DNA from: Ehretia macrophylla
Lineage: Eukaryota; Streptophyta; Magnoliopsida; Boraginales; Ehretiaceae
Reading direction: 5' to 3'
Length of the DNA: 64,000 nucleotides
NCBI GenBank assembly: GCA_037974665.1
Contig: CM075765.1
Location: forward strand, 12,078,001 to 12,142,000
Part shown: one piece after another, positions 22,235-54,984 of the stretch
How the letters are laid out: each line of letters opens with the position of its first letter
Numbering within the stretch: position 1 is the stretch's first letter
The notes under the pieces: generated by a model
The model's input: the letters and a program-made list of their open reading frames with translations, nothing else
Told to the model about the DNA's origin: nothing
Databases searched by the model: none
Position numbers and translations under genes: made by a program

Positions 22235-22250
22235 TTCTCCCCCCCTTATA
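22235..22250 (-). other. Polypurine tract of the Ty3 element
   Basis: Minus strand TATAAGGGGGGGAGAA directly beside the 3' LTR; it primes plus-strand DNA synthesis in this family. Confidence 0.88.
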
Positions 22251-25200
22251 GAAATTTCGTCCTCGAAATTCTTACTTGATGTACGGAAAAGATCTGGGTA
22301 TTGCTGCTGTATCTGATCTCGTCTATCCCACGTAGCTTCCTCAATGCCGTAATGCTTCCACAACACCTTAACCATCAGAATCCTCTTCGACCTCAACTCT
22401 CGGTCCATCTGATCTAGAATACGAATTGGACGCTCGTCATAAGTCAAATTCTCTCGAAGCTCTAACGGTTCTGGCTCAAGAATATGAGAAGGATCCGGAT
22501 TGTATTTCCGTAAATTAGACACGTGAAATACATCGTGGACATTAGAGAAATTCTCCGGTAAAGCCAACCGATATGCCAACTTACCAACCCTACTAGTAAT
22601 CTCAAACGGCCCAACAAATCTCGGACTCAGCTTACCACCTTTACCATAGCGAGCAAACCCCTTTCGAGGAGACAATCTCAAGAAAACCCGATCTCCGACT
22701 ACAAACTCTAAGTCTCGACGACGCTTATCAGCATAACTCTTGAACCTACTCTACGCCGTAAGCATTCTCTGCCTGATCAACTAAACATTTTCAATATTCT
22801 CAAGAAGTTCTGGCATAATAGTCGGATCAACAGTCTTCATCTCTCCTACCTCGTCCCAATATAAAGGTGAACGGCACTTATGACTGTAAAGAGCTGCAAA
22901 AGGTGCCATTCCAATAGTAGCTTGATAACTAATGTTATAGGCAAACTCGGCAAGCGGTAGATGTTTCTCCCAGTTCTTTCCGAAGTCCAGAACACAAGCT
23001 CTAAGCATATCTTCCAGAATTTGAATAGTCCGTTCAGACTGACCGTCGGTCTGTGGATGATACGCGGTACTAAAGTTCAACTGAGTACCCAAAGTCTTCT
23101 GAAGTTTCTCCCACAAACGAGAAGTAAATCGAAGATCTCGATCAGAGACAATACTAGACGGAATCCCGTGAAGTCTAACAATCTGATCCAGATAGAGACC
23201 CGTCAACTTTGTAACCTCATCTCCCATCCTCATTGCAATAAAATAGGCTGTCTTCGTCAAACGATCCACGACAACCCAGACTGCATCATTACCCCTTGGT
23301 GTTATAGGAAAACCAGAGACAAAGTCCATCGTAATATGCTCCCATTTCCACTGTGGTATAGCCAACGACTGAACCAAACCTGCTGGTCGTTGATGCTCGG
23401 CTTTCACCCTCTGACAAGTCAAACATCTAGACACAAACTGAGCAACCTCCCTCTTCATGTTGTTCCACCAGTAATGTTGCTTCAAATCCCGATACATCTT
23501 GATTCCACCGGGATGAATAGTATATTTAGAATTATGAGCTTCCTCTAGAATACCTCGCCTCAAACTCGGCTTATCGGGAACACATACCCTATTCCGAAAC
23601 CGAAGAATACCGTCCTCATGTACTTTGAAGTCAGACTGATCATCAGTGATCTGATCCTTGATTTTCTGAAGTTTAACATCAAGTTGCTGAGCTTCCCTGA
23701 TCTGAGACAATAATAAAGGCTGAATACGGAGATGTGAACACATCACCCCAACCTGAGTCAACTCTGGTCTCCAATAACTAAACTCCTCAAGAACCTCCCA
23801 CTTCTTGACAGCCAAACAAGAAATACTAGCCTTCCGGCTGAGAGCATCTGCTACAACATTTGCCTTTCCAGGCAGATAATTGATAGAACAATTATAATAT
23901 CCAAGAAGCTCCATCCATCTCCTCTGGCGCATATTTAACTCCTTCTGTGAGAATAAGTACTTAAGACTCTTATGATCGGTGAAAATCTCAAACTTACTAC
24001 CCCACAGATAATGACGCCACTTCTTGAGTGCAAAGACAACTGCTGCTAACTCAAGATCATGAGTCGGATAGTTTTCTTCATAAGGCTTCAACTTTTGAGA
24101 AGCATAGGCAATAACTCGGCCATTCTGCATAAGAACACATCCCAAGCCCTCCTTGGATGCATCACTGTAAATAACTATATTATCGGTCCCCTCTGGTAGA
24201 GCAAGTAGTGGAACGGTAGTTAACCTCTTTTTCAACTCCTGAAACCCACTCTCACATTTCTCATCCCAATTAAAGATAGTCCGTTTCTGAGTCAACTTAG
24301 ATAGTGGCCCCGCAATCTTCGAGAAGTCCTTGACAAACCTACAGTAATAACCCGCCAAGCCAAGAAAGCTACGGACATCAGAAACACTCTCTGGCCGTTT
24401 CCAAGACATCACCGATTCAATCTTAGTGGGATCTACAGAAATACCCCTCTGTGTAATAACATGGCCAAGAAAAGATATGCGTTGCAGCCAAAATTCACAT
24501 TTGCTGAACTTGGCAAACAACTGATGCTCCTGCAGCTTCTGTAAGACAAGTCGTAGATGTTGCTCGTGCTCCGATTCAAATTTAGAATAGACCAAGATAT
24601 CATCAATAAAAATTACCACGAACTGGTCCAAGTACGGCTGAAAGACTCGATGCATCAAATCCATGAATGTTGCCAGTGCATTAGTCAATCCAAAGGGCAT
24701 AACAACAAACTCATAATGCCCGTACCGAGTCCTGAAGGCAGACTTCAGAACATCCTCCGTACGAATCCGAAGCTGATAATACCCCTGCCTCAAATCAAAT
24801 TTAGAATAGACTTTGGCTCCTTGAAGTTGATCAAACAACTTGTCAATTAGTGGCAAATGATATTTATTCTTGATAGTCACCTGATTCAACCCACGATAAT
24901 CTATACATAACCTCAAGGTACCATCCTTCTTTTTCACGAATAAAACAGGAGCTCCCCAAGGTGAAGAACTCTGCTGAATGAATCCTTTCTTCAATAACTC
25001 TTGTAACTGAGCTTTCAACTCCTTCAACTCAGCTGGTGCCATCCGGTACGCTGATTTAGAAATAGGTTGAGTACCGGAAACAAGATTAATCACAAATTCT
25101 ATATCCCTCTCAGGCGGCAACCCTGGCAACTCCTCGGGAAATATATTAGGATATTCCCGAATAATAGGGACTTCCTCTAGCTGTAGCTTATCAGATGGCT

Positions 25201-25640
25201 TGTTGATTAAATAAGCCAGATAACCCGAACACCCCTTACTCACCAACTTAACGGCTTTAGTTGCTGAGATAACAAAACTCGTCTTAGCACCCCGGTTACC
25301 CGCTACCTCTACTACTGGCTGATCCGGCAATCGAAACTGTACTACCTTGGTTCTACAGTTTAACTGGGCATCATACTTAGAAAGCCAATCCATACCCAGA
25401 ATAACATCATACCCCCGGATAGGAAATAAAATAAGGTCCGAAGGAAAATTATGCCCCTTAACATGTATTATACAATCCTTACATACTAAGCCAGTAACAT
25501 ACTTATCAGTCAAAGAGGTACTAATCTCAACTACATAAGGCAATCTTTCAGGTTACCGACTTGAGACCGGATTTCTACCAGAGGGAGGCTCCTATCTACA
25601 AATTAACACATTGCACACAAGCAGGAGTAATGAAAGAATG
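22250..25640 (-). CDS. pol region of the Ty3 element (fossil): RT, RNase H, integrase, chromodomain
   Basis: Order on the minus strand: reverse transcriptase with [18 protein letters not shown] and the F-I-D-D catalytic box (near 24600); RNase H with Y-S-D-A-S (near 24160) and T-D-H-K-S-L; integrase with an HHCC zinc finger (about 23400-23550), its core with D-F-V-S-G-F-P and [11 protein letters not shown] (near 23050); and a chromodomain with [11 protein letters not shown] (near 22350). The chromodomain and RT style place it with Tekay/Del chromoviruses. Confidence 0.9.
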
Positions 25641-27004
25641 CGTAGCACCAGAATCAATCAACACTTTAACAAGTTGATCAAGTATAAAGAAGTTACCTTC
25701 CACCACTGCAGTCTCCTCAGGCATCTCCTCCATATCAACTGCATAAGCCCGAGCCTGAACCCGCTGCTGCTGTGGTACACTGCCCGTAGGCCTACCCTGG
25801 TAACCATGAGTCGCTGCCTGACCCTCAGTCCTCGCATATCTAGGGCAATCCTTCGCCCTATGCTCGCTGCTACCACAACCCAAACATGTCCCTGCCTTTA
25901 CCCTGCAGTCGGACTCCACATGCCCTGGGCGCTTGCAGTAATTACACTGCGATGATGTGGCACTAACACTGCCCCTAGAAGAACCAGAAGCTGATGAAGC
26001 AGCTGATACAGCCTGCTGCTGAGGTCTCACCACACTAGGCCTGTACTGACCCTGAGACTGGGCTGGCCTATACTGAGTCTGAACCTGATATGGCCCCTGT
26101 TGAAACTGAGGCCGATAGTAACTCTGCTGACCCTGTGGCCTATAAGAACCCTGCTGGGCTGGTGGCCTGTAGACAACCTGCTGTACTGGAGGCCTATATA
26201 TAACCTGCTGGCCCTGTGGCTGATACGGCCTCTTACTAGGCTGACTGGAGACAATCTGATCCCCTTTTCTCTTCTCTAACCTAGAAGCTGCATCAAAAGC
26301 CTCAGTGAAGATATCATAACGATTCAGAGCCATTGCATCTTGAATCTCGGGCCTCAATCCCAACATAAATCTACGGGTCTTCCTCTCCTCCACATCTACA
26401 AACTCCGGTGCATACCGGGACAACCTAGTGAATGTAGCCTCATACTGAGCCACAGAAGAATCCCCATGTACCAAAGACAAGAACTCAGCCTCTCTCCTCT
26501 CCTGTGCAACCCTCGAGACATACTTATCCCTAAAAGCAGTCAGAAAGGCATCCCAAACATACGGAACACCCTGGGTCTCCCAACTGGCTCTCAGAGTGCG
26601 CCACCACTCCTCTACCTCATCATCAAGCAAATAGACAGCAGAAGTCACCTTCCTCTCATCAGTGTACCCGAGAGGATAAAAAATTTTCTCTAACTTACTA
26701 ATCCACGACTCGGCCTTCCTATCATCAAGCTCTCCCTGAAATCTAGGAGGATAGTACCCCAGAAACTCCTTCATAGTACCTCAATTGTGATTGCCACACT
26801 GTACATTCTGTATCTGGGCCTGTAATGCCTGAGTCTGAGCAGCTTGACCCGCTATCAACTGGGCCTGTCCAGCCATCAAATCTGCAATCCGATCCATTGC
26901 TGCCCCTAACCTGTCATCACCCCTATCACGGCCCTGTGCCACATTACCAGGAACCTCATCTACTATCTCGGGCCTACCACGAGTCCTCGGTCTACCGTCC
27001 ATCG
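25590..27004 (-). CDS. gag region of the Ty3 element (fossil)
   Basis: Capsid-type sequence (G-Y-Y-P-P-R-F-Q-G near its start, E-E-W-W-R-T-L), a Q/Y/R/P-rich linker with a repeated Y-R-P-x-x-Q-Q motif, and two CCHC zinc knuckles (C-N-Y-C-K-R-P-G-H and C-L-G-C-G-S-S-E-H). An aspartic-protease site D-S-G-A-T-H follows at the gag-pol border. Read as an old element copy. Confidence 0.88.
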
Positions 27005-27261
27005 TACTAATCAAAGAGTTAGCACAGGTTATAGCACGTAAACAGGTTATACACAACTTTTAACACATAAACAACAAACTCATATAAAGCACATAGGTCA
27101 CATAAGTTTCAATCACATAATCACATAAGCACTTAAATCACATAATCACTTAATCATTTAGTCATATCAATACATAATTCACTTTTCTTTCTTTTAATAC
27201 ATATTTCATGCTAAGACCATTACCCACATTCCGAGAATACCCCGGCTAACAACTAACATGC

Positions 27262-27273
27262 GCTCTGATACCA
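27262..27273 (-). other. Primer-binding site (tRNA-iMet) of the Ty3 element
   Basis: Minus strand TGGTATCAGAGC, complementary to the 3' end of initiator tRNA-Met, six bases inside the 5' LTR. Confidence 0.9.
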
Positions 27274-27279
27274 CTTAAA

Positions 27280-29665
27280 TGTCACGCCCCAACTCGACCT
27301 ACCTACAATCAGTGAGGACGCAACGGGATTTCGGCAGTATAACGACAATAAATAGAATACCGAGGTTCTAAACCAGCCTCATTAATAACATCAAACATCC
27401 AATTCCATAACCATACAAACAACAACTCCTCAACAGCATAGCAACACACAATATAACCGTAATATACAATAATCAGTCCTCGTTATCTGCCTCCATTCCA
27501 ACATAACATACAATACCTCAACCTTATCATACATTTCAAAAATAAGTTGAGACCTATCTAACAACTTAACCATAGACAAAAGAAGCTACTAGAATAGTAA
27601 CAACTAATTCATATTCTTTTCAGCATCCTATACAACAAGAACTATAAAGCATAGAAAAGGCTACTAAACTAATATACATGATAAATAACAGCACAGAATC
27701 ACGGATAAGACTCTGGGACATATGACTCGTCCACGTAAGGCACATTTTCCTCCTCAGGAGGCACGTACCCGTAATCCGGCTCTGCAACACCTGTAACCAT
27801 GCAATAATAGAGAGTGAGCTTATATAAATAAGCCCAATGAGGATCCGATAGATCTCGAGTAAGGTCTACTAAACTCCTTGGAATAATCCTTTGAGTCAGT
27901 AAACACACAATAACATAAATAATACTATCATCACATAACTATATAACCATTCAATAAAGGATACTCTATTTGGTGTAGCTCCAAACGCCATCACGATCTC
28001 AACCGTTCTTCTTATAACTCCCCATTACTCACGCACCCGAGGTACCTCACTAGCCCTTCCCTCCATGACACCTCCGTCATGCGAGCTGGGGGTAGCCTCT
28101 GGCAGTCATGCCGTTATCAACCCGACAGCCCAACGCTGCCCGAGAGGTGGCACACACATACCAAGACTCTATAATCATCATCAATCATCAATCAATCATC
28201 ATTTATTCATCATTGATAGCATCAATTATCATTTAAACAACAATAACTTAGTTAGATGACAAAGTAGGCCATCTAACCGGACATGCATTATATACACAAT
28301 TAAACCCTAAATTACTCATCAACAACTCACCATTCAACACTCAAACACCACCCAATCATCTAAAGGCATCGTTCAAGAAATTAAAGAATGACAACCTAAA
28401 CTTCAAAAATTCACAACTTACATTCTACTAACCCAAACATTGCCAAATCAGTTTCTATCACTCACACATTCAACCTACTACATTAGCCCTCTCGGAAATC
28501 CACCATAATACCTCCAAATCATGCCCGATAACCCTAAAACCCTAGGATGTCTTGGCTGAATTTTCTGGACTTTCCCACGAGCAATGTAATCGAAAATCGG
28601 CATTACAACAGCGCTAACACGTAATTATCAAGTATTTAGAAATCAACGGCAATTGATTTCGATAATCACAACTCAATTAATTCAACAATAAACGATTTAA
28701 TCAAAATTTAATACCCGAAAAATAAAAATTATGCTACATCCGACAGAAACTCGTAGTATTACCACTAAACGATCCCTAGCATGCAAGGACCAATAATCTA
28801 ACATTAGATTACAATTCTAACGGTTCAATCTTTATTTATACGCAAAAATGTAAAAGACAAGTTTTGAGATCTAGAATTTTTCTCTCACCTTTGATGCGAT
28901 AAAAGCCTAGGGATGCGTGAAGTGCGTGCCCAACAAGCAGAATCCAAATCGGTGCGAAGTTTTACGGACAAAAACCAAGTTTTTCTTTTAAAATTTGATT
29001 GAAAAACCTTGAAATTCTCTTTGGCTTTTTCTCCCTCAACCTCTCGGCCCTTTGTGTGTGTGTGGAGTGTGTTTTGTGTTGTGTTGAGTGTGTGTTGATG
29101 ACTATATGCAATTAAAAGCTTGGTCAAATAAATAAAATGCAAAGTCAAAGTAGTATTTTAGTCCTTTAATTCATTTTCTTGTCTTTTAAATGCATTTTAG
29201 CTATCTCCTTGCTCAAAACAAAAATGCAACTCCTAAGATAGCTCAAGTAGATTATTTTTAGGTGATAAGAAGTTTTACAATCAAACAATTCTACCCGAGT
29301 CGGCTTAAAACTCGATTTTTGCAAAAGTCAGTGTAAAAATCCTAATAAATTCTTAAGCCGATTTTAAAACCGTTTTCATCAAACACAGGTCTATTAAAGT
29401 CCGTGGACTAGGTCTAGAAGGGTTAAAAAGACCAGTTTCAAAATTTTAGCGGACGTGTTTTGAAAATACTATTCACTGAAAATTGACGATAAAATTTATG
29501 ATCCCGTTTTTTATGAAAATTTCATGAATGCACATTTAGCACGTATTAGGAGTATTGACATCAAAATTATAACTTTCTAGGTCCTATAGCACATAAACAG
29601 GTCATATGCACACAAAACGAGGTATAGCACGTAAAACAAGATAAGCAAAAAAGTGGGGTTTCACA
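27280..29665 (-). repeat. 5' LTR of the Ty3 element
   Basis: 2386 bp, TG...CA ends, borders the target duplication at 29666-29670 on the outside and the primer site on the inside. Nearly identical to 19847-22234. Confidence 0.93.
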
Positions 29666-35017: not shown

Positions 35018-35654
35018 AATCATAGTAGAAGTGGGATTTTCATTTTTTAGTCTTATTGAACTTTTTTTGCCAAAGTAATATGGAAAAACACGAACCATTT
35101 GTCAATAGATAAATGCCTCATAATCTTTTCCTCTATCTGAGGCAATTAGCTAGCCACATATTTGGTGAAGAATCGCAGCCATATATTGGATGAAGTTATC
35201 CAGATAAGAAGATGACATTTAACACAGCTTTGCACATATCATGGATACATGACAAAGATCTCAGTTACTTTACCTGCCGTGTGAAGTACGTCGCTTATCA
35301 AGTGGTTATAGCTACCGACAATGGTAGTCCCGCACTTCGTTAATAATCTTATCAAATATCCTATTGATTTTCTCTTGAGTAATAAATAAAAATCGTTAAC
35401 TGTTTGACATATGTTGAGTAATGTTTAATTTTTAAAAATTTTAAAAATAATGATAATTTTCAAAAATAAGAAGGGATATATTTAAAAAAAAATTAAAAAA
35501 ATAATTTTTCGCATTATGTAAAACAATTTTAAACAAATCTTGTTTTAATTCCTTGGTCACAAGCAACTATTTTAATTTGAAGCTCTCCTTTATTATGTCA
35601 ATTACAAACATTTAGCTCTCACAAAATCAGTCTCAACAACATATCTAGCAAACC
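35018..35654 (+). promoter_or_regulatory. Promoter region of P450 gene C
   Basis: The distal part (to about 35340) matches the flanks of D (44710 onward) and F (57385 onward). The proximal part differs. A TATA-like CTTTATTATG lies at 35589-35597, about 60 bp before the first ATG at 35655. Confidence 0.5.
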
Positions 35655-36031
35655 ATGCCAGGTGTGGAATTGATCTGGGCAACAATCACAGTGTTTGCAA
35701 TTACTGCTCTCCTTGATCAGTTGTTGAGGAAGATCAAGAATAAAAGGTTACCTCCAGGTCCAAAAGGACTTCCTATTTTGGGGCATCTCCATCTTTTGGG
35801 AAAGAATCCTCATCAAGATTTGCATAAGCTAGCCAAGAAACATGGCCCCATCATGTACATGCAATTTGGATTCCTCTGCTCGTAAGACATGTACTTAGAA
35901 GCCTCAAGAAGTGGCCTACCGGCGAAAACAAGGTCGTACCTCTTGAGAAACTGTTCTGCTGCTTGAGGGGATGAAACAATGATAGTGGGTAGGCCACTTC
36001 TTGAGGCTTCTAAGTACATATCTAGCAAACC
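35655..36031 (+). repeat. Duplication-inversion at the 5' end of gene C
   Basis: 35641-35870 is a direct copy of the leader and first 71 codons of gene C (same sequence at 36018-36247, offset 377 bp). 35871-35987 is an inverted copy of C exon 1 sequence from about 36255-36372. Then about 30 bp run forward again (GGTAGGCCACTTCTTGAGGC...) into the second leader. 35888-35919 and 35987-36019 are inverted repeats able to form a hairpin. The first ATG (35655) opens a 76-codon frame ending at 35885, out of frame with the main start at 36032. Confidence 0.9.
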
Positions 36032-39000
36032 ATGCCAGGTGTGGAATTGATCTGGGCAACAATCACAGTGTTTGCAATTACTGCTCTCCTTGATCAGTTG
36101 TTGAGGAAGATCAAGAATAAAAGGTTACCTCCAGGTCCAAAAGGACTTCCTATTTTGGGGCATCTCCATCTTTTGGGAAAGAATCCTCATCAAGATTTGC
36201 ATAAGCTAGCCAAGAAACATGGCCCCATCATGTACATGCAATTTGGATTCGTACCCACTATCATTGTTTCATCCCCTCAAGCAGCAGAACAGTTTCTCAA
36301 GAGGTACGACCTTGTTTTCGCCGGTAGGCCACTTAATGAGGCTTCTAAGTACATGTCTTACGAGCAGAGGAACTTCGGCATGGCTCCATATGGTCCTTAT
36401 TGGCGAAGCATGCGCAAATTTTGCACATTAGAGTTGCTTAGTAACTTCAAAATCAATTCATTCGAATCAATGAGAAGAGAAGAGCTTGGTCTTTTGGTCG
36501 AATCACTCAAACAGGCAGCACAAGATCGCGTTATTGTCGATCTTAGTGCCAAAGTTTCATCCCTGAGTGCTGATATGACTTGCAGGATGTTGTTTGGCAA
36601 GAAGTACACAGATGAGGACTTGGGTCAAAGAGGGTTCAAAGCAGTGATGCAGGAGGTAATGGAATTATTAGCTGCTCCAAACCTTGGTGATTATTTTCCT
36701 TATCTTGGTATGCTAGACATTCAGGGATTAACAAGGCAAATGAAGGCTATAAGAAAGCTTTTTGATGCATTCTTGGAGAAAATAATAGAGGAACATGAAC
36801 AAAAAAGGAACCAAGGTCAAACAAAGGACTTTGTTGACACCATGCTCGCTATTATGGAATCTGGAGAAGCTGAATTTCGACTTGATCGGAGCCTTGTTAA
36901 AGCCAATTTGCTGGTAGGTAGAAGTAATTAATAGAATCCACCTGATTATATGCCATCTGATTAATTTCTTTCTGCATCTGCTCTTTGATGTTCTTTAGTT
37001 GATAGATTTCATAAATGGTCCCCAGTCTTTACACCTTTCTTTAATTTCGTTCTCGTTATTTTAAAAGTAACACGTAGTCTTCAAAGATTGCAAAAATATT
37101 CAATTAATAATGGAGTTCGTTATTTTTTTTACGGATTTTTCGAGATTTGTCTTTCTTCGAAAAAGATTTTAGTACCTAATAGTTACACTCTCTTTCATTT
37201 TCGTCCCTATTGGTTCATCGTTTTTTTACGGATTTTTCGAGATTTGTCTTTCTTAGAAAAAGATTTTAGTACCTAATAGTTACACTTTCTTTCATTTTCG
37301 TCCTTATTGGTTCGAAAGTAGCACACTTAGTCCTAAATTTTGTAAAAAGTTTCAGTTTTGTCTCTATATTTTTGTAATTTGCACATGAAACTTTGGGTAG
37401 ATTGAAAAACAGTTAAAACATTAAGGATTATATTAAAAAAAATTATAAACTTTATAGATTAAGCGTGTCATTTTTGTAACAATAAAGATTAAATTGAAAA
37501 AAAAAGTGTAAATATATATTAAGACCAAGCACATCACTTTTTAAATAATAAGGATGAAAATGGAAAAAAAACGTAACAACATTAAAGACAATTTGTGAAA
37601 TTTGCTCTTCTTTTGTTCAATAGTCTAGTTTTGAAGGTCTAAAACTAGGAAGAAAATATGGTTCAGAATCAATTTTTAAACAATATAGATGAAAATGGAA
37701 AAAAACGTAACAACATTAAAGACAATTTGTGAAATTTTCTCTTCGTTTGTTCAGTAGTCTAGTTCTGAAGGTCTAAAACTAGGAAGAAAATATGGTTTGG
37801 GATCAATTTTTAAACAATATAGATGAAATGGAAAAAAACGTAACAACATTAAAGACAATTTGTGAAATTTGCTCTTCTTTTTTTCAATAGTCTAGTTTTG
37901 AAGGTCTAAAACTAGGAAGAAAATATGGTTCAGAATCAATTTTTAAACAATATAGATGAAAATGGAAAAAAACGTAACAACATTAAAGACAATTTGTGAA
38001 ATTTTCTCTTCGTTTGTTCAGTAGTCTAGTTCTGAAGGTCTAAAACTAGGAAGAAAATATGGTTTGGGATCAATTTTTAAACAATATAGATGAAATGGAA
38101 AAAAACGTAACAACATTAAAGACAATTTGTGAAATTTGCTCTTCGTTTGTTCAGTAGTCTAGTTCTGAAGGTCTAAAACTAGGAAGAAAATATGGTTTGG
38201 GATCAATTTTTAAAAAATATAGATGAAATGGAAAAAAACGTAACAACATTAAAGACAATTTGTGAAATTTGCTCTTCGTTTGTTCAGTAGTCTAGTTCTG
38301 AAGGTCTAAAACTAGGAAGAAAATATGGATTGGAATCAATATTTAAACAATATAGATGAAAATGGAAAAAAACGTAACAACATTAAAGACAATTTGTGAA
38401 ATTTGCTCTTCATTTGTTCAGTAGTCTAGTTCTGAAGGTCTAAAACTAGGAAGAAAATATGGTTTGGAATTTGTGGCAGAAATTCAAGGATTTAGAGTTA
38501 AGCCTGAAATTTTGTTGAGATATTATTATTTTTCTGAACCCTATATTATTTTTCTTTTTTTTTCCTCCTAGGTAACCCTATATTCTTTTGGTAAAAAAAT
38601 GTTTTAAATATCCAACATAATTTAGTAAAATTATTCACATTTCAGTTGCCTGAACTACAAGGAATTTGATCGCCTTATATATTCATTCACAGAGCTCTTA
38701 TTCTTATACTTTGAAATGCTTCTTTACAACACTTTAATCACTCAACAAATCTTCACGGCAGGACATCTTTGGAGCTGCATTGGACACCTCAGCAGCAACA
38801 ATTGAGTGGACTCTCTCAGAACTCCTAAAACACTCGCGGGTCATGAAGAAAGTTCAAGAAGAACTGAAAAAAATTGTAGGAGTGAATAGGATGGTAGAAG
38901 AGTCGGACTTGGATAGCCTGGAGTACTTGAATATGGTGGTGAAAGAATCCTTCAGGCTCCACCCCGTGGCGCCATTGCTTCTTCCTCATGAGGCCATGGA

Positions 39001-39376
39001 AGATTGCACGGTTGATGGATTCGATATAGCAAAGAAATCAAGAATTATCATAAATGTATGGGCAATTGGACGAGATCCCAATGTATGGAATGATCCAGAG
39101 AAGTTCATCCCTGAAAGATTTATTGGCAACAATATAGATGTTCGGGGACGTGATTTTGAGCTAATTCTGTTTGGTTCAGGCAGAAGAAGTTGTCCCGGCA
39201 TGCAGCTTGGCCTCACCGTTATTCGGCTAGTAATAGCACAATTAGTGCATTGCTTTGATTGGGAGCTTCCATATGATATGATGCCCACAGCTTTGGACAT
39301 GACTGAACATTTTGGTCTTGTAGTGTCAAGGGCCAAACATATAACAGCTATACCAAATTATAGATTACAAATATGA
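36032..39376 (+). CDS. Cytochrome P450 (CYP736A-like), gene C
   Basis: Exons 36032-36913 and 38762-39376; intron 1848 bp with donor CTG|GTAGGT and acceptor GGCAG|GAC, phase 0; 498 codons, normal length for a CYP71-clan enzyme. Residues 5-24 form the N-terminal membrane anchor; the hinge R-L-P-P-G-P is at 31-36. The C-helix W-R-S-M-R follows near 124-128. Exon 2 opens with the I-helix [10 protein letters not shown] (295-304), then E-S-F-R (356-359), P-E-R-F, and haem loop [10 protein letters not shown] with Cys438. The residue before the loop is Leu instead of the Pro in the other copies. Such enzymes take electrons from P450 reductase at the ER to oxidise a small molecule; the substrate is not evident. 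The start at 36032 is preceded by a duplicated leader and an out-of-frame 76-codon frame. Retention of the intron would give a stop six codons past the donor. Confidence 0.9.
37127..37310 (+). repeat. 91-bp tandem duplication in the gene C intron
   Basis: Two copies of a unit containing ATTTTTCGAGATTTGTCTTT (about 37135 and 37229). Gene A has at least the second copy in the window; E and F have one. Confidence 0.65.
37534..38468 (+). repeat. 133/134-bp intronic minisatellite, 7 copies
   Basis: Cores ACGTAACAACATTAAAGAC at about 37571, 37705, 37838, 37972, 38105, 38238 and 38372, a 133-134 bp period. Units 1 and 3 share CAATAGTCTAGTTTTGAAGG and GGTTCAGAATC; units 2 and 4 share GAAATTTTCTCTTCG. 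So the first four form an A-B-A-B array of 267-bp dimers. Confidence 0.92.
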
Positions 39377-39737
39377 TATGACCTCATCACTATTTCATTA
39401 TGATATGATGCCTTGCTACGTCATCACTATTTCATACTCATTTACTATATTGGTTTCTAGTACTTTTAAATATCTTATAATGGTTGTCCTTGCAGCGAGC
39501 CTTATTTTTATCTGTTTGATTGTTTTTCGTTTTTTTCTTTTTTTTGGATGCCTAGTAGTCCTAGAAGGACTTGGTCACATTATGGCAAAAGATTGAGAAT
39601 AGCACTCTTTAATGAATTACAAAGCTGACCATGCCCTTTGTTAAAGTTAATACCCTTCTTGTAATTAGTAGTTTTAATTTTATCAACTTTCCTAATTTAG
39701 TGTTTTAATTTGGTTGTAATTACGGAATTGATTTGTA

Positions 39738-42700
39738 ATGTATCCTAGTGGGAGATATGTTTCCAATCATTGGATGAGTATACGTCATGGTTGGCAGTTG
39801 GGCGTACACATATTTAGCTATATAACAATGGGTAAAAATTCAATCCAATCTCAATATAGACTATCTAGTTTAATTCATTAATATTATACAAGTTATTCGT
39901 TAATGCAAATGAAACTAACTTAAATATATTTTATAATTGTTAACTGATTTGTACCTACTGTTGCATCCATATGAGAGTTCAAGAACATCCTTGCTGATGG
40001 GTTCACGAGCCCGTGGGTCACATATGTAGAGGTTCGACCAGACATCAAGGAACGATGGTTTCACTCGTTTGAGGTATATATAAAAATTAATGCAATAAAT
40101 ATTTGTTATATTTTATATATATTATTTATGCATTCATATTTGTATTAACTTATGTATATGTTTTTCTTCTTTGTGATTATAGGAGCCCGGACATAAGGAG
40201 ACATTTCCGTCAAAAAGACGTAGATAGGTTGAAGGACCAATTACATAAGGTGCATAGAGAAAACAAGAGGCCTAGTTGGACTATTGACGTAAACTAGGAC
40301 TAGATGAAGATAAAATGGGAGACTGATATATGGAGTGAAATATCTAAATAGAATAAGAAAAATAGGGAGAAAAACACTTTGGTCGACTACGTGGGTATCA
40401 CCCCCTTTCATGGGATCAAAAGAAAGATGGTATGTGAAACCAATTAACTAATTAAATTCAATATATAAATTAATTAATTTATTTTATGTCCTATATATGT
40501 TCTTACTAATTATAAAATTAATAATACAGGAGGAGACAAAAGGTTGCCCAATGTCCCTGATCGAGATTTTCAAGGTAGCCTACAATAAAGGGGAGGGTGA
40601 TAATGTTCAATACTTTGACAATAAGACTGTTAAGATGATATTAAGTATTTATATTGTATAGTCGTACATTACAAATATGTTTTTAATTTAATAAGAATAC
40701 TAAGTTTTTCACATTTTTGTCTTTACAGAAGCGATATAATGAGATGCTCTAGTAGTGTGAGGCTGCGAGGCAAGCCGATCCCATGGTACCGCAAATGAAA
40801 CCCAACGAGATTTTCTTTGAGGCAGTTGGCGAGTCAAAAAATGGGCGTGTTTATGGATTCAACTGGCAAGGGGTCCACATTGGTCGGGTAGCACACGATG
40901 TGTGACGCCTGAGATCTTAGCCGTACTTTAAGTCATTATTGTATCCACTATTTGTGCATTTCTTCTGTGATTTACTTGTTACTTTATGTGGTTACTATTC
41001 ATTCCGTTCTTCAACTGCTTAACTATCTTGAATTAGCATTTTTCTTAAATCATATTAATTGTTTTAGGAATGAGAAAAATGTGCGTTTGAGCTAAATGCA
41101 TTAGGAGCCTTCGTTTAGAAAATATTTTAGCAAACTAGTGAATAGTGTTACGTAACTAAACTAGGTGTTTTAATTAGCTAACATTAATTGCACAATTAGG
41201 ACTTATTTCTAACTAGCTAAACTCCTTTTAATAGTCAATATGTGCACCTAACTTGACCCCACCCTTTATATTGCTCAACATACACATAAAAAGCTTATAA
41301 AAACAAAAAACAAAATAAGAGAGCAATGCTGAAAACACTGTAGCAGGGCCGAAAATCAGCATAGGAGGAGAATGAGAGATTTTTGCTCAACAAATCCTCA
41401 TTCCAAGCCAAGCCAAGCTAGGTGCAAGTGGTTTAGGGTGTTTACTAGCCTCCTAGGAGCTCTTACGTGCAATAGGTGAGGGATTTCATACCTATTTTTG
41501 CATTTGAAAAATATGACAATTTTCTTGAATTCTTAGATTTGCTATCAAATACTTATGCAATGCTTAAATATGCTTATGTATGTTGTATATAAGTACTAGA
41601 AAACTAATTTATCATATTGTTTCATATTTTAAACGGTTGAAATTATTTGTTGATCGTATGACATGAATAGTGACGGAAAAACTAGGGTTTTGCGTAATCG
41701 GACCTTATAGCTTGAATTAATGGTTCTAATAGATGCTTTAGGTGCTAATGAAAGTAGTGTAAAGGCCCCGTAGGGTTTAATTGCTCATAACCTATCAAAA
41801 GCTTGAAATAACCGACTTTTAGAAAAAGGTTTTGGGGTTATCGCAAATCCGGGTTGAATTGGCCATCACTTTTGGTATTCCTAGGCTAAGTAGACTCTAG
41901 TTATGCTTTGCTAGCTTCCGTTTGGGTCCCGGGTGAGGTTCGTGTAGTACAAAGTCAAAAGAGGAAAATTGAAACTTTCGGGCTAAATGCGGGTAATTAG
42001 GTGACTTTGAGGGTCCTAAGGGTGCCTAAGGGGTTAAATAGGAGCATGGAATAGACCACTCACGAATCTAGAACTGTAACATGAGTTTGGAAGAAAAACG
42101 GTTTGAGTTACAAAGGGGTTTGAGTACAATTTTGATTATCTCACACTTCTAAGACCTTGACATGACTCCTTGTGTGTTTAAATGTGATTTCAAGATGTTT
42201 TGGAGCTTTTGGTGTAGTTCTATGTGAATCTTGATTATGCCCCTTTGTAATTTGCTTAATTGTTATATGAAATTACTTTTTTTTCTAACTGTTTCGAGGA
42301 CAACCTACTTTGTTGTTTCTCCCATGTGTTATTGCTTCTATTGTTATTGTTATATTACCATTGATAAGTGCATTGCATAGTAGTTGTGCAACCATAGTGT
42401 CAGGTGTGGTTGTATTGAATATCGGCTAGGCGGCAACGGGCTTGCCAGTAGATATTCGATCTTCGTGCCCTAGTCTCTTACTTACCTGGTCCGGAGATTG
42501 CCAGGGGGTGTTGGGTCGTAGGATTATCGGGGTACATCCGGAGTACACCCACTGGAGTGATTGGGGATTTGCCGACATATTGATCGTGGTTCGTGGCTCG
42601 TGGTTCGTGATCGAAGTTAAGAGAATTCTGGAGTGTTGGGGTTAAGTGTATCGTATCCTTTGATATATGTGGTTATCTACTGTTTCAAATGTACTTTACT

Positions 42701-44278
42701 TGTCTTCTTGTTCAATTGTTATAACTGTTGCAGTGCACATCCCGGGTAGTTCTTATCCCTCACTGGGCAATAGTGGTTGCTCATACCTCGCTAACATGTT
42801 TCAGAAGACGCTGAAGTTGAACCCCAACTAGATTTGGTAGATGGTGAAGAATAGGAGGTCTAGACTGATCAACTACCGTAGTTGTAGTGTCTAGTTGGTT
42901 GAGGTGGATTTATGGTTCTTGTTGTAATGTAGGGACCTTGTTTGCTCTACTTTATGTCCTATTTTGTAGCCTAGGTACTTATGTACATGTTGTGTGGTTG
43001 TAAGCTGAATACTAGATGATTATGGTAGAAGGCATAAAACTATGGCATGTAATAACTTATGTTTCTACTTCTAGCTACTTTGCATGCTTGAGTGTGAATG
43101 TTAGGATGTAAGGTTGTTTTCAATTCATAAGAATGTTTAAAGGCTATTATAGAGTGGCATGATAAGCGGTTTTGCAAAGAAAATATATTGTGAATGCATG
43201 CTTGTGTGTATCTAAACTGTTTGTATGTCTTAAGGCTCAGATGACCTTAAAGTTGGGATCTTTATTTTGGAAATGACTTTATTGTTGATCTATAGCTTAT
43301 TGAATGCTTACAGGTTTTCAAAATGTCCACATTACAGGGAAGACTCTGTCCGCTTTTTCCTAAAATTTTGAGACCGGGTTAGAATTGGGTTGAGAATAGC
43401 ATGGTTATTAGAGCATCCGGTCTCGTGAGGGATCGGGGCGTAACATGATGTCCTTGCCATTTTTCCCAGTCTCACACAGCGAGACGTCAATGCTACTGTC
43501 ACTCAGGCGATAGAGGCCAAGAGGCCAATGCTTGAGGAGTAGCAGCGGCGTTTTGTCGAGGAGTAGCATGCCGATTAGTAGAAGCTCAAGCAACAAGGGC
43601 AAACGTGCGAAAAGTAGCAACATCTGATGTAATAATAGTGTTAGCTAGAGGCCGAGATGCAGCGTTAGATGGCTGAGCATATGGCCTTGATGTAGAAGAT
43701 ACGTGAGGAGATCAGCGACTTGCACGACAACCACCTACCTTGTGATCAAGACCAGCCGGGCAATCAGTAGATTCTAGGCTTTTGATAAATTTAAAAAATT
43801 AATTGTTGTACATTATTTTACATTTTTTGTAAATATTAATATTTGGATTTTAAATATTTTATTTTTATTGTTATTTTTATTGTTTTTTATTATTATATTT
43901 TTATTTTATAAATTTTATATTTTTTTAACAAAATAAAAAAATTAAAATGAGATGGAATTGTAACAAACAATTTGCAATGGCCTGGCGACGGAAGCCGGCG
44001 ACAGATGATAATAAAATTTTAATTTTTAGAAGGATTGACGAAGAAATTAAAAAAATAATTACGAATAATAAAAATATATTGGTGACAGATTAGTAACAGA
44101 ACTTTGCAACAAAATGGCGATTGATATCGAAAAAATAAATATTTAATGTTTTTCTAATTTGTCAACGACATGAAGGGTTAATTTGGCCACTAAATCTGAC
44201 ACGACGTCCAAATTTTCATCACCCGTATTCTTAGGCCACAGAAAGTGACCGTCGCCCTTCCCCTTTTTTCTTGTAGTG
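39738..44278 (+). mobile_element. Left-truncated CACTA transposon between C and D
   Basis: The right end is CTTGTAGTG at 44270-44278 (inverse of CACTACAAG). The left end lacks a CACTA terminus and is fused to the gene C 3' flank at about 39737. Pieces of a Transposase_24 (plant En/Spm-type) protein read in order: R-R-H-F-R-Q-K-D-V-D-R, K-K-N-R-E-K, G-C-P-M-S-L-I-E-I-F-K, then N-E-I-F-F-E-A-V-G-E...G-R-V-Y-G-F. Stops interrupt it. A solo LTR (40901-43445) sits inside. The same truncated element without the LTR lies at 54985-56951. Confidence 0.8.
40901..43445 (+). mobile_element. Solo LTR of a Ty3/gypsy element
   Basis: 2545 bp, ends TGTGACGCC and GGGGCGTAACA, flanked by CGATG (40896-40900) and TGATG (43446-43450), a 5-bp target duplication with one change. 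The paralogous site near 56150 is empty. Its length and GGGGCGTRACA end resemble the LTR of the 19847-29665 element, so a related Tekay/Del-like family is likely. No internal region remains. Confidence 0.8.
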
Positions 44279-45400
44279 AAAGAAAAGATATTGGAACACT
44301 TGGTTCATATTATTGCAATATTTACATGAGGGTGCTTAGGATATAGATCATGTTACACTGATTGGTTGAGTAAATTACTTGAATGCAGTAGAGATAGAGA
44401 AGACAAGAAAACAAGAAAAAAAAAATGCTCTACATATAAGAATTATGTGATTCACCATGCCTATATCTATAGAGCAACAAAATAAACTATTCACTATCGT
44501 AATGAAGAAAGAGATTACAATATTTTTCAATGCAAGAAAAAAGGTTTGTCAATACCTATGCTAACTCTCTCTCAAGTTACAATGAAATGGAACTACTATA
44601 TTGCAAAGTTTCTATCTCTATTTTAAAGCTGCAAAATGAGACTATTTATAGAAGAGAAATTAACACTATTCTGATCAAGATTAAGATAAGAACATTTTTA
44701 GTAATAGTCATCATAGTAGAAGTGGGATTTTCATTTTTTAGTCTTATTGAACCCTTTTTTTTCCAACGTAATATGGAAAAACACGAACCATTTGTCAATA
44801 GATAAATGCCTCATAATCTTTTCCTCTATCTGAGGCAATTAGCTAGCCACATATTTGGTGAAGAATCGTAGCCATAGGATGAAGTTATCGAGATAAGAAG
44901 AAGATATTTAACACAGATTTGCACATATCATGGATACATGACAAAGATCTCAGGTATTTTACCTGCCGTGTGACGTAAGTCACTTATCAAGTTGTTAGCT
45001 AACAACAAAGGTGGTGGCATGCGCAGTGGCTTGGTTAAGTAATCCACAAACTCTTGAATTCACTTGGTTTACAGGTGTGGACCACCTATGTTCATAATCT
45101 TAACAAAGTTCCTATCAGTTTTCTCCTATTTCACTCTAAGGCTGACTCGATTAGATCTAACAGTGAAAGTTTAGCTTTTGAACTATAATTTTTTTTTTGG
45201 TCAAAATTCTAAGACTTCAACATTAGAGTTTTAGTTCGAAGAAATGTTAAACAAAAGTTATTTGACTGTATATGTTGGACAATGTTAAATTTTTATAGCT
45301 TTCCCAACAAATCCAATTTGACCAAAAAATCTGTTTATAAGTAAGTACAAACATTTCGTTCCAAAAAAATCAGTTTTAACAACATATCAAACAAACCACG
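44279..45400 (+). promoter_or_regulatory. 5' flank of pseudogene D
   Basis: Close match to 56952-58085 before gene F. A TATA-like TTTATAAG lies at 45334-45341, about 62 bp before the former start at 45401. No other gene seen. Confidence 0.55.
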
Positions 45401-47279
45401 ACGGGTATGGATTGGATTTGGAAAACAATTGATGTGTTCGCAATTGTTGTTCTCCTTGATTAGGTGGGGAGGAAGAGAAAGAATAAGAGGTCACCTCCAG
45501 GCCCAAAAGGTATTACACTTAGTCATGAATTTGCAAAAAATTTCAGTTTCGTCCTTATATTTTGTAATTTGCACGAGAAACTTTGGGTAGATTGAAAAAT
45601 AGTTAAAACATTAAGGATTATATTAAAACTTTTTATAAACTTTATGGATTAAGCGTGTCACTTTTGTAACAATAAGGATTAAATTAAAAAAAAGTTTAAA
45701 CATTGGGACTAAACACATAACTTTTTAAACAATATGGATGAAAATGAAAAACCGTAACAACATTAAAGGCAATTTGTGAAATTTGCTTTTCTTTTGTTCA
45801 GTAATCTAGTTCTGAAGCTCTAAAACTAGGAGGAAAATATCGTTTGGAATTTGTGGCAAAAATTCAAGGATTTAAAGATAAGCCTAAAATTTTGTTCAGA
45901 TATTAATAAGGGTAGAAAATGTGTGCTTTTGTCCGAGCTCAGTAATATTCACGTCGTTCAGTCAGAGGTCAGTAATATCTAGCGTTGTTCAGGCCGAGCT
46001 TAGTAATATTCAGCGTCGTTCAGCCCGAACTCAACTCCGGAAGCGTTCAGCCTGTAAAACAAAGGTCTTCGGGGTAGCCCCAGGGACTCACTCCGACGCT
46101 CAACTTAGTTATAGAGTCCAAGAATAGCATATGAGCTAAAAGTAAGAGCTCAAGAGTAAGAGCTCAAGGGGAAGAGTTCAAGAGAGAGAGATTAGAGAGA
46201 GAATGAGCAACATAGCAAGTGTGTCCTCTTACCTTGTGTGAGCTCCTCCTATTTATAGAAACATATGTGACCTAAGGAGTACCACGTGTCACATTCTAGT
46301 CCAAGCCTTTTGTGATGTCGCTGGGTTGACATACTACGATAGTTTCGGGGTTAATTTCGTCTATTCATTTAGAGCCTAATTTCACCCATATCAGATATTA
46401 TTATTTTTCCGAACCCTATTTTTTTTGTTTTTTTTCTCCTAGGTAACCCTATATTCTTTTGGTAAAAAATGTTTTGATATCCAACCAACAATTAAAAGCA
46501 GCAGTAATCATTATGTATTAGTAAAATTATTCACGTTTCAGTTGCCTGAACTGCATGCCAGGAAATTCGATCGCCTTATATATTCATTCACAGAGCTCTT
46601 ATTGTTATACTTTGAAATGCTTCTTTACACAACACTTTAATCACTCAACAAATCTGCACGGCCTGACATCTTTGGAGCTTCATTGGACACCTCAGCAACA
46701 ACAATTGAGTGGACTTTCTCAAAACTCCTAAAACACCCGCGGGTCATGAAGAAAGTTCAAGAAGAACTGAAAAAAATTGTAGGAGTGAACAAGATGGTAG
46801 AAGAGTTGGACTTGGATAGCCTGGAGTACTTGAATATGGTGGTGAAAGAATCCTTTAGGCTCCACCCCGTGGCGCCATTGCTTCTTCCTCATGAGGCCAT
46901 GGAAGATTACACAATTGATGGATTCGATATAGCAAAGAAATCACGAATTATCATAAATGTATGGGCAATTGGACAAGATCCCAATGTATGGAATGATCCA
47001 GAGAAGTTCATCCCTAAAAGATTTATAAGCAACAATATAGATGTTCGGGGACGTGATTTTGAACTAATTCCATTTGGTTCAGGCATGAGAAGTTGTCCTG
47101 GCATACAGCTTGGCCTCACTATTGTTCGGCTAGTAATAGCACAATTAGTGCATTGCTTTGATTGGGAGCTTCTATATGATATAATGCCCACAGCTTTGAA
47201 CATGACTGAACATTTTGGTCTTGTAATGTCAAGGGCCAAACATCTAACAGTTGTACCAAATTATAGATTACAAATATGA
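45401..47279 (+). pseudogene. P450 pseudogene D (type 2, CYP736A-like)
   Basis: The start of exon 1 is recognisable at 45401, but the first ATG is changed to ACG and codon 21 reads TAG (45461-45463, CAG in F). The exon stops at about 45510 (P-P-G-P-K) where it is fused to intron sequence (ACTTAGTC); about 1.1 kb present in F is missing. Exon 2 (46665-47279) keeps its full 615-bp frame, but the acceptor reads GGCCTG instead of GGCAGG, the haem loop is [10 protein letters not shown] (second Arg position after Gly-x kept, the first changed to Met) and PERF is PKRF. The intron has the 486-bp insertion shared with F. No working protein is possible. Confidence 0.93.
45906..46391 (+). mobile_element. 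Mutator-like non-autonomous insertion in the D intron
   Basis: 486 bp flanked by the perfect 9-bp repeat CAGATATTA (45897-45905 and 46392-46400). Introns of A, C and E lack it; E has the empty site. Weak inverted ends (ATAAGGGTAGAAA against ATATGGGTGAAAT). Internal tandem words GCTCAGTAATATTCA and a TATTTATAGAAA. A 9-bp duplication is typical of MULEs. Confidence 0.7.
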
Positions 47280-48139
47280 TTGAATGAAAGGAAATTCATA
47301 GAATATAACTCCAAATTTAATAATAATTAATTCCATTGAATTCTTATGCCTTGCTACTTCATCACTATTTCATACACGTTTACTGTATTGGTTTCTAGTA
47401 CTTTTAAATATCTGATAATGGTTGTCCTTGCAGCAATCCTTACATTTATTTTACTTGTTTGAATGTTTTTCTTTTTTGATGCCTAGTGGTCCTAGAAGGG
47501 CTTGGTCACATTGTGGCAAAAGATTGAAAATAGCACTCTTTAATGAATTGCAAAGCTGAGTTATTAGTTAATAGAGTTATTAGCTCAGTTTGGCATCTAA
47601 CTGACAGACTTATGTAAATGAAAACTTTTGTACTCGTGTTTTTGTGGTTGGAATGAAAGGATTACTTGCTTGTTTAGCCAAAAAAAAAAAAAAAACCGAC
47701 CATGCCCTTTGTTAAATTTAGTTAATACCCCCTCTTGTAATTAGTAGTTTTAATTTTATCAACTTTCCTAATTTGTTAGTAATTACGGGTTTGATTTGCT
47801 TATTTTGATCAACTCTTTCTATATAGATTGACATCAACGTTCAATGAAAAGGTGTGAAAAATTTCTCTCATTGTTGCCTTGTGAAATCTAATGTGGTATA
47901 AAATTAGAATCACGTGGCTTCGACTTCTTTTGCTAAATAGGGTTAGATTTATATGATTAGAAGATTTGATGTAATTTAGATTTTGATATTTGAAAAGCTT
48001 TCAAACCATAGTTGAAAAGTTAGCTTAACAAGATTAGTGTAGTCCATATATCATATATGAACAATAGGCAGAGAAAGCTATAAAGCATCAGAGCAGCTTC
48101 AGCATGATCATTTTTTACTTGACAATGACTTATAGTAAA
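47280..48139 (+). other. Convergent spacer between D and psi2
   Basis: Matches 1506-2362 and 61043-61918. It includes the poly(A)-tailed insertion (about 47560-47695). No gene seen. Confidence 0.7.
47560..47695 (+). mobile_element. Poly(A)-tailed retroposed insertion behind D
   Basis: Same insertion as at 1786-1916, with a run of about 16 A; the left target repeat AAAGCTGA is at 47552-47559 and the right one is degraded. Confidence 0.6.
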
Positions 48140-48950
48140 TCATATATGCAACCGATAGGTAGGAACAGCTGTTCGATGGTTGGCTCTAGTTACTACAAGA
48201 CCAAATTCTTTAGCCATGTCCAATTATGTTGGTAACATCCCATATGGAAGCTCCCAATCAAAACAATACACTAACTGTGCCACTACTAGCCGAACCGTTG
48301 TTATCCCGAGATGCATTCTAGGGCAAACTCTCCTGCCTGAGCCAAATAGAATAAGTTGGAAATCACGACCTCGAACGTCTATGTTACTTCCAACAAACCT
48401 TTATGGAATGAACTTTTCTGGATCACTCCACTCATTGGTATCTCGCCCAATTGTCCATACATTTACGATAATCCGTGATTTCTTTGGTATATGATAACCA
48501 TCAATGGTGCAGTCTTCCATGGCCTCGTGTGGGAGTAGTAATGGTGCCACAGGATGAAGCCTCAAGGTTTCTTTAACTACCATATCCAAATAGTTTAGGT
48601 TATCCAAATATGACTCTTTTACCATCCTATCCATTCCTATTATGTTTTCCAGCTCTGTCTGGACTTTCTTCATTACTTGCGGGTGCCTCAACAGTTCTGA
48701 GAGGGTCCACTCAATAACTGTTGCGGAAATGTCCATTGATCCTACAAGTATATCCTGCCACATATATTTTTTCAATAAGTAATTATCACTTGTTGAATAT
48801 AATAAATAATATAATAATTCTCTCTCTAACAACTTCAGTTTTTAGATGAGGTGATAACTTAACATGGTATTAAAGTTTAAAAATTAACTCTGGTTGCACT
48901 TACGGGGGCGTGTTGAAAATAATAAATAATATAATGAATTCTGATAGTTT
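48140..48950 (-). pseudogene. P450 pseudogene psi2 (minus clade), exon 2 only
   Basis: Exon 2 at 48140-48754 has the full 615-bp length. It reads [14 protein letters not shown], then K-F-I-P followed by a TAA where G has GAA (E of PERF). After it the haem loop reads [10 protein letters not shown], with the final Gly changed to Arg, and there is a further stop near L-P-T. Exon 1 is absent: sequence similarity to psi1 and G ends at about 48950, inside the right LTR of the intronic TRIM. Unrelated sequence follows. It is dead, and probably was cut after or while losing function. Confidence 0.92.
48791..48950 (+). mobile_element. Truncated TRIM in the psi2 intron
   Basis: Left 74-bp LTR at 48791-48864, degenerate primer site TGGTATTAAAG, and about 40 bp of the right LTR from 48911, where the paralogy ends. 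Confidence 0.7.
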
Positions 48951-51130: not shown

Positions 51131-52193
51131 AAGTGATGTATTTACACAGTGTCGTTTAGTATTCCTAGATTCATATTAAATAAGCTCTCTTAGTGTTTTT
51201 TAGTATTCCTATCTACTAGTATAAATAGATGTAGTTTCACGTTGTTTTGACAAGTGAAGAAAAAGTGAAAACAATTGAATGTAGAAAATTATTGAGAGTG
51301 CTAAGAAAGCTTTGTGAAGGCAGCAGCTTAGCTATTAAGTTTATGAGTTTATTATTTGAGCCATACAATCGTACTTTGTAAAATATATCTCCTTGTGCTC
51401 TCTTTGTAAGGATTTGTAAATCCAATATCACTTCCAGCAAAAATAAGCTTATTTCACTTTGTAATTTGAAATATCATCGTTTTCAAATGCTTTTTATACA
51501 TTGAAGCAAAGCAAACTCAGTAGATAGCGAGAACTGTTGTTGTCTTTGTCTGGTGTTCATGGTACGGTGCTAACCAAAAGAAGATGCCTTTTCTCTCTTC
51601 CCCTTCTTTCTGCCCCGGAAAAATTCATCCTACATCTGTGTTGAAGTTGATGATGGTCGGCAAGATAAGTCAAAGTTTGCAACTCAAGTTGATTGATCAG
51701 CAACTAATGACGACCTCAAATTTTTGTCTTCATATTTTCAGTTTGAACACTACAAATGCATGCTGTATTGAAGAAATAGTGTCCAAATTGAATTTGTTGT
51801 CTTAGCTTTTTACAACTAAGATTAATAGCTACAATAGCTAGCAACTCATCTATAAAAGGAGGAGTTGAGAGTGAGGCAGAGCATATTGGTATACCCTCTG
51901 TTAAATTCTTTCTATGTTAGTGTTAGAGCGCCAACCTTGTACAATCTCCTCTGTTAAATACTGATATTACTGCCTCGTGTACGTAGGGAAGTTGCCGAAC
52001 CACGTAAAATTCGTGTGTCTATATTTTTTGATTACTTTCTCCTTCACTATTTTGTGTGTGCCTATTCTAAACAGATTCTATTTTAAAATCAATTGATCCT
52101 GTGAAGGGTTGCTCAAAATCTCTCTTTATCAGTCAAGTACAAACATTTCCTTCCAAAAAAAATCAGTCTTAACAAAATATCAAGCAAACCACG
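51131..52193 (+). promoter_or_regulatory. 5' flank of gene E
   Basis: From about 51520 it matches 63924-64000, the far flank of gene G. Only the last 80 bp match the proximal promoter of F. The TATA position reads CTCTTTATCAG (52122-52132) where F reads CTCTTTATAAG. 51145-51470 looks repeat-derived, perhaps LTR, without a pair. Confidence 0.5.
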
Positions 52194-54626: not shown

Positions 54627-54984
54627 TATGACCTCATCACTATTTCATTATGATAGGATGCCTTGCTACGTCATCACTATTTCATACTCGTTTACTGTAT
54701 TGGTTTATAGTACTTTTAAATATCTGATAATGGTTGTCCTCGCAGCGAGCCTTACTTTTATTTGTTTGATTGTTTTTCATTTTTTTTTCTTTTTTTGGAT
54801 GCCTAGTGGTCCTAGAAGGGCTTGCTCACATTGTGGCAAAAGATTGAGAATAGCACTCTTTAATGAATTGCAAAGCTAACCATGCCCTTTGTTAAAGTTA
54901 ATACCCCTCTTGTAATTAGTAGTTTTAATTTTATCAACTTTCCTAATTTAGTGTTTTAATTTGGTTGTAATTACGGAATTGATT
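54627..54984 (+). other. 3' flank of gene E
   Basis: Matches 39377-39737 behind C and has the empty site for the poly(A)-tailed insertion (near 54875). No gene. Confidence 0.7.

Follow-up and report, generated by a model that had tools for sequence, protein, structure and literature searches.

A scar of 377 bases precedes gene C, one member of a plant-like tandem cluster of cytochrome P450 genes present within the window (that is, the whole stretch of 64,000 nt of DNA that was analysed). In this scar the start of the gene is present twice, with a backward piece in between. The arrangement was probably produced by a single episode of error-prone repair in gene C, which would have left the coding sequence intact and the level of protein C much lowered. 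As such, the scar documents how a direct duplication, an inverted copy and a hairpin could all arise within 400 bases from one repair event, and both ends of the presumed break are still readable to 2 nt. It also suggests how a copy in a tandem cluster could be turned down, or made into a small-RNA source, without harm to the coding sequence. A gene finder using coding sequence alone would label gene C as intact.

Anatomy of the scar and the P450 cluster

The native proximal promoter and leader side of gene C is located at positions 35588-35638 (forward strand, as are the features below unless otherwise indicated) and can be aligned to two other members of the cluster, genes D and E. This alignment reaches back to about 35588, and region 35588-35872 showed an 85% match to 58018-58300 in the gene E region. 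It is followed by copy 1 of the gene start (35639-35873), comprising the first 73 codons and the 16 nt of leader before them, which is identical at 235 out of 235 nt to copy 2 (36016-36250), the one that leads on to the remainder of exon 1. Only copy 1 is now preceded by the native promoter, and copy 2 retains just 16 nt upstream of its own ATG. The preliminary description of this DNA had proposed a direct copy of the leader and first codons, correctly except that it counted 71 codons instead of 73. It had also proposed an inverted piece of exon 1 and a forward piece leading to the second leader, and both were found: an inverted copy of 36252-36372 at 35871-35991 (minus strand, 119 of 121 nt identical) and a forward copy of 36323-36354 at 35988-36019 (30 of 32 nt). 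Both inserted pieces carry the same 2 mismatches with respect to exon 1. Relative to a gene with a single start, the region has two copies of 36016-36250, three of 36323-36354 (one of them inverted) and two of the remainder of 36252-36372 (one of them inverted). The forward piece pairs perfectly with 35889-35920, giving hairpin arms of 32 bp (35889-35920 with 35988-36019) inside 36-nt arms with one mismatch, and the inverted piece can form a 121-bp fold-back, with 2 mismatches, with its template at 36252-36372. The length of these repeats excludes a chance origin.

Gene C (36032-39376) consists of exon 1 (36032-36913), which is the main open reading frame, and exon 2 (38762-39376). Joined together, they encode 498 amino acids with no internal stop. 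The Pfam p450 profile matched exon 1 and most of exon 2 (38780-39376), so that gene C has, as a plant cytochrome P450, the profile on both exons and an open frame. When exon 2 was compared with solved sequences, the best four of 311 were ferruginol, sugiol and isoflavone synthases and cinnamic acid 4-hydroxylase, all of them plant enzymes. The rest of the cluster is formed by gene A, of which exon 2 lies at 909-1505 and exon 1 is expected to the left of the window, and genes B (about 2361-3934, minus strand), G (about 45343-47279), H (about 48136-48832, minus strand), D (52194-54626), E (58086-61042) and F (61915-63680, minus strand). We take the cluster proteins to resemble CYP736A. The genes are organised in repeated blocks, with C-G-H (36018-48939) resembling D-E-F (52114-63313) at about 92-94% in long matches and A-B resembling E-F at 91%.

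Private codons of exon 2 were counted among five copies. Gene C has 4, of which 3 change the amino acid (one of them P to L), gene A has 5 with no effect on the protein, and the protein-altering fraction is 7/11 in D, 4/7 in E and 13/14 in the broken gene G. A relaxation of selection on gene C might be read from these sequence counts, which are too small to prove it. The exon 2 loop that is presumably the haem loop is changed in C (38780-39376), G (46683-47279) and D (54030-54626), each compared with A and E. Other members of the cluster are damaged as well. Gene G is broken at 45480-45560, where exon 1 stops after a CCCAAAAGG stretch and passes directly into intron-like sequence. In gene B, a part of exon 1 is missing (3690-3760) and, in comparison with gene F, the loss junction falls between two sites containing ACATG, near the position of the gene C break. 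In addition, a 133-bp tandem repeat is present in 7 copies in the gene C intron (37533-38470) and in 2 copies beside gene A (339-607). Elsewhere in the window we noted a probable LTR retrotransposon on the minus strand (19847-29665), with terminal repeats of about 2.4 kb that are 97.5% alike and polyprotein-like ORFs between them, and, by eye, ORFs resembling parts of a CC-NB-LRR type resistance gene (8151-10237).

Junctions, templates and repair history

The four segments of the scar meet at three junctions. At the first one, between copy 1 and the inverted piece, TTC is shared (35871-35873), since direct identity ends at 35873 and inverted identity begins at 35871. Junction 2, from the inverted to the forward piece, shares GGTA (35988-35991), and junction 3, from the forward piece to the second leader, shares ACAT (36016-36019). 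The preliminary description had placed junctions at about 35870 and 35987, both of which are present, but had missed the third. Microhomology at junctions 1, 2 and 3 therefore amounts to 3, 4 and 4 nt. In 200,000 random draws of local junction triples, at least 3 nt at every junction occurred in 0.03%, the mean total overlap was 2.2 nt and a total of at least 11 nt was reached in 0.065%. We then reconstructed the path by dynamic programming over both strands of the flanks, leaving out the insert and using two switch penalties. Results showed the same four segments and a minimum of three switches at both penalties; at the higher one, the cost of the three-switch path was 28 versus 92 for forward-only copying. 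Template switching during DNA repair is the best fit to these data, in view of the nested local copies, the 3-4 nt microhomology and the three-switch minimal path. The preliminary description had assigned the switching to replication repair. Switching at a replication fork would yield the same product as break repair and belongs to a group of two or three pathways with an equally good fit. The fit is at least as good for end joining with templated filler when this is combined with synthesis on a homologous template.

The end of the inverted template (36252) lies 2 nt from 36250, the equivalent of the end of copy 1. When inverted templates were placed at random within 36020-36600, one end or the other was as near as this in 1.7% of 100,000 draws; the test was devised post hoc. 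We prefer a single break at 36250/36251 because run-off of synthesis at a broken end predicts precisely this proximity. The repair, in the order of steps that we infer, could have proceeded as follows. A double-strand break would have occurred at about 36250/36251. The left 3′ end (...TTC) would have annealed through 3 nt to positions 36370-36372 of the right fragment, and this fragment would have been copied backwards until synthesis ran off its end at 36252. The new end (...GGTA) would then have re-paired through 4 nt at 36323, allowing 32 nt of forward synthesis. Finally, the resulting ...ACAT end would have paired through 4 nt with the leader of a homologous, unbroken template, from which the leader and exon 1 would have been copied beyond the break before rejoining to the right side. 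A point against a single event is that the 121-nt tract is a long one for a short template switch, for which a median tract of 12 and a maximum of 128 are given in the part of the great-ape report available to us (PMC7954356).

One codon of exon 1 bears on the source of the template. At 36335-36337 the exon reads AAT, whereas both inserted pieces read CTT; the corresponding codon is ATT in D, GTT in E and CAT in F. That both pieces share CTT implies either one common template or that one piece was copied from the other. The CTT/AAT difference needs a second allele or a paralogue, a later double change, or a repair error. Any one of the following would suffice: a second allele acting as the final template, a later change of the exon, or a copying error made in the inverted piece and carried over to the forward one. 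Given CTT in the inserted pieces and AAT in the finished exon, the unbroken template may be another allele.

The same codon is accounted for differently if the scar arose in two events, a history that we consider unlikely but the strongest of the alternatives. A four-point template switch on a CTT allele would have run from 36250 to 36372, backwards to 36252 and back to 36323, leaving a hairpin in exon 1. Later, a tandem duplication would have joined ACAT at 36354 to ACAT at 36016, placing an intact AAT allele behind. Such a history needs no later mutation to explain why both inserted pieces have CTT and the exon has AAT, the computed three-switch path divides cleanly into its two steps, and, from what the available text of both reports describes, each type of step has already been published (PMC7954356; PMC7464560). 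However, it requires two rare events in one exon and, as copies 1 and 2 differ at 0 of 235 nt, both would have to be recent or allelic.

For the single repair event that we favour, the paralogues were also considered as donors. The 121-nt inverted piece has 2 mismatches to C, 3 to E and 4 to D, so that C is the closest among the copies compared. The 32-nt forward piece has 1 mismatch each to D and E versus 2 to C, and it is nearer to D and E because of the AAT/CTT codon. A template from D or E was tried and not adopted: when both were offered, the path still drew the inverted piece from C; the forward piece shifted to D with a gain of one mismatch (cost 27 versus 28), which decides nothing. 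Of the two bases that side the inverted piece with C rather than with D/E, one falls inside the junction 2 overlap. Because of this, and because the forward piece is nearer to D/E, a paralogue, including one not seen here, may have been the template of the inserted pieces.

We also observed that the first 73 codons of gene C (36032-36252) are far more unlike D and E than the remaining exon 1. Sites at which C differs from both D and E numbered 29 out of 218 to the left of 36252 and 10 out of 660 to the right. Within exon 1 the change point was located at 36252 (support 36121-36267; 0 of 2000 permutations), a step in divergence that, judged from the alignments, might reflect gene conversion. 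The idea of a seam between two paralogues at the break was rejected when the flanks were added (from 35588, with the insert omitted), since the change point then moved, its support being 36067-36140 against E and 36081-36143 against D. As the change point shifts with the flanks, we do not claim that seam and break coincide. The region upstream of gene C shows patchy divergence, with a 1% difference at 35093-35192, and the scan of gene C against gene G revealed no clear change point in divergence. As for the age of the scar, the absence of differences in 235 nt bounds the divergence at roughly 1.3%. With a substitution rate of 7e-9 per site per year, the scar is therefore younger than about a million years, barring gene conversion between the copies.

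Upstream reading frames, RNA folding and possible silencing

Transcripts from the native promoter would reach the real start of gene C only after meeting a series of upstream open reading frames. Counted by stop codon, these are five in total. The first and longest, of 76 codons (35655-35885), begins with the start of copy 1 and receives its last 3 codons and stop from the inverted piece; as anticipated in the preliminary description, its frame differs from that of the start at 36032. Its truncated peptide gave a weak match to the Pfam p450 profile (26.3 bits, cut-off 22.8). The four smaller ones comprise 18 codons in another frame, overlapping the 76-codon ORF (35842-35898), 25 codons within the inverted piece (35889-35966), 3 codons (35971-35982) and 23 codons spanning the main start codon at 36032 (35979-36050). 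None of the seven upstream ATGs shares the frame of the main ORF. The first of them (35655) is found in the same context as the true start (AACCATGC).

Folding of the RNA was predicted for the 800 nt between 35621 and 36420, resulting in -385.6 kcal/mol, a value that none of 20 shuffles equalled (z -22.3). In the minimum-energy structure, 35871-35991 pairs with 36252-36372 in a stem of 121 bp, and the true start is located in the 260-nt loop that this stem encloses. As a control, the equivalent part of gene E (432 nt) was folded and gave z -0.43 (28 of 100 shuffles as good); because the lengths differ, it is the z values and not the energies that can be compared. The 32-bp hairpin reported in the preliminary description has its arms in place and folds when taken alone (35871-36023, predicted -82.4 kcal/mol, z -11.5), but in the fold of the whole region it gives way to the 121-bp fold-back with exon 1.

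Stable hairpins impede scanning. Upstream ORFs reduce translation of the main ORF and may trigger decay, according to the available portion of a published account (PMC7503886). From the native promoter, the 76-codon ORF would be met first, followed by the four smaller ORFs and by the fold-back around the real start. On the basis of this anatomy and of such general rules, production of protein C from the native promoter should be strongly reduced. A transcription start inside the insert would bypass the block, the reading frame of gene C being still open. A rescue by splicing was examined by eye and rejected, in that joining a donor-like GTAAGA created at junction 1 (35882) to the AG at 36024-36025 would leave the 76-codon ORF out of frame with the main ORF. 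A scan for bacterial-type promoters found no promoter-like site, although this type of scan is not meaningful for a plant.

The fold-back could act in a further way, namely by being diced to small RNAs against C, D and E, which would make the scar a newborn regulatory locus. This reading concerns the effect of the scar and is compatible with a history of one or of two events; we regard it as quite unlikely. It draws on the 121-bp stem of the predicted fold and on the 21-mers of the inverted arm, which match perfectly in exon 1 of C (79 of 101), D (48 of 101) and E (58 of 101). As a prediction, and assuming a single transcript, the region has the long near-perfect stem matching its target that characterises plant hairpin-derived small RNA loci. 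In the sections of the literature that we could draw on, perfect long dsRNA is described as a substrate of DCL4 and DCL2 (PMC4238362), and inverted chalcone synthase repeats of soybean silence their relatives (PMC3804491). On the other hand, none of the 101 21-mers matches exon 1 of F or B, the latter being without this part, and RNA that is translated or scanned may not fold; in this regard, the available text also indicates that ribosome association may block the folding of hairpins (PMC4238362). Rfam searches at gathering scores gave no match within the window. Overall, small RNAs against C, D and E from the fold-back are no more than possible. The fuller version, in which one repair accident created a self-silencing gene with a 121-bp trigger against C and, through shared 21-mers, against D and E, its arms still undiverged, seems to us slightly more improbable.

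Least likely among the readings is an assembly or library artefact, either a chimeric molecule or two haplotypes placed head to tail: two haplotypes would account for CTT versus AAT, and some amplified libraries also yield short inverted chimeras with microhomology, but the window contains no N, the inserted pieces, with 2 differing bases, are no plain copies of the nearby exon, the CTT/AAT codon argues mildly against a plain assembly repeat, and we know of no assembler that joins at 4-nt overlaps.

Comparison with known systems

A literature search, not aimed at the species, retrieved nothing that we recognised as dealing with this locus. Work on plant tandem duplications has reportedly been carried out by Schiml and by Vaughn, both of whom are cited in PMC7464560. 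Among the mutational processes compared, tracts of 121 and 32 nt seem long for fillers made by polymerase theta. In other respects, as far as the accessible description goes, such end joining resembles the scar, with inserts templated from the flanks in both orientations, short microhomologies and iterative priming, and breaks in Arabidopsis are reported to contain templated fillers of either orientation with microhomology (PMC10923293). The scar has the microhomology (3, 4 and 4 nt) and the insert derived from the break flanks (2 mismatches per piece) of a theta-type filler, but its last step requires a homologous unbroken template.

Short template switches that produce hairpins are described, in the available parts of the respective reports, in apes (PMC7954356) and at RNA genes (PMC8794818). 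The scar shares with these four-point switches a local reverse-complement copy that generates a near-perfect hairpin, and its corresponding four switch points lie within 123 nt of each other. The inverted piece is near the top of the ape size range given there. Unlike them, the scar includes an extra jump to the leader and a 235-nt direct duplication, and two switches do not explain the whole change, three being needed. A two-switch event would cover just part of its history.

The human DUP-TRP/INV-DUP rearrangements, as outlined in the available text (PMC4352052), likewise combine duplicated, inverted and triplicated segments through template switches at microhomology. They differ in scale, affecting large genomic intervals instead of hundreds of bases, and the scar has no longer inverted repeat common to its junctions: no pre-existing inverted repeat was found at them, and junctions 1 and 2 share only 3-4 nt. 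What could count as a triplicated segment is here just 32 nt (36323-36354, one copy inverted), the rest of the inverted piece being present twice. Closer in size is the 408-bp duplication of the grape VvmybA1 promoter, also of a few hundred bases at the 5′ side of a gene, with a 3-nt microhomology and a phenotypic effect, for which the text at hand mentions no inverted piece (PMC7464560). Finally, the inverted-duplication model for the birth of plant microRNAs, as summarised in the available part of its source (PMC3237417), also has an inverted segment beside its source and a target-like fold-back, whereas the fold-back of gene C, a predicted one, sits in the transcript of the target itself. 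Taken together, the scar is a known kind of mutation, of which it provides a clean and well-preserved further example.
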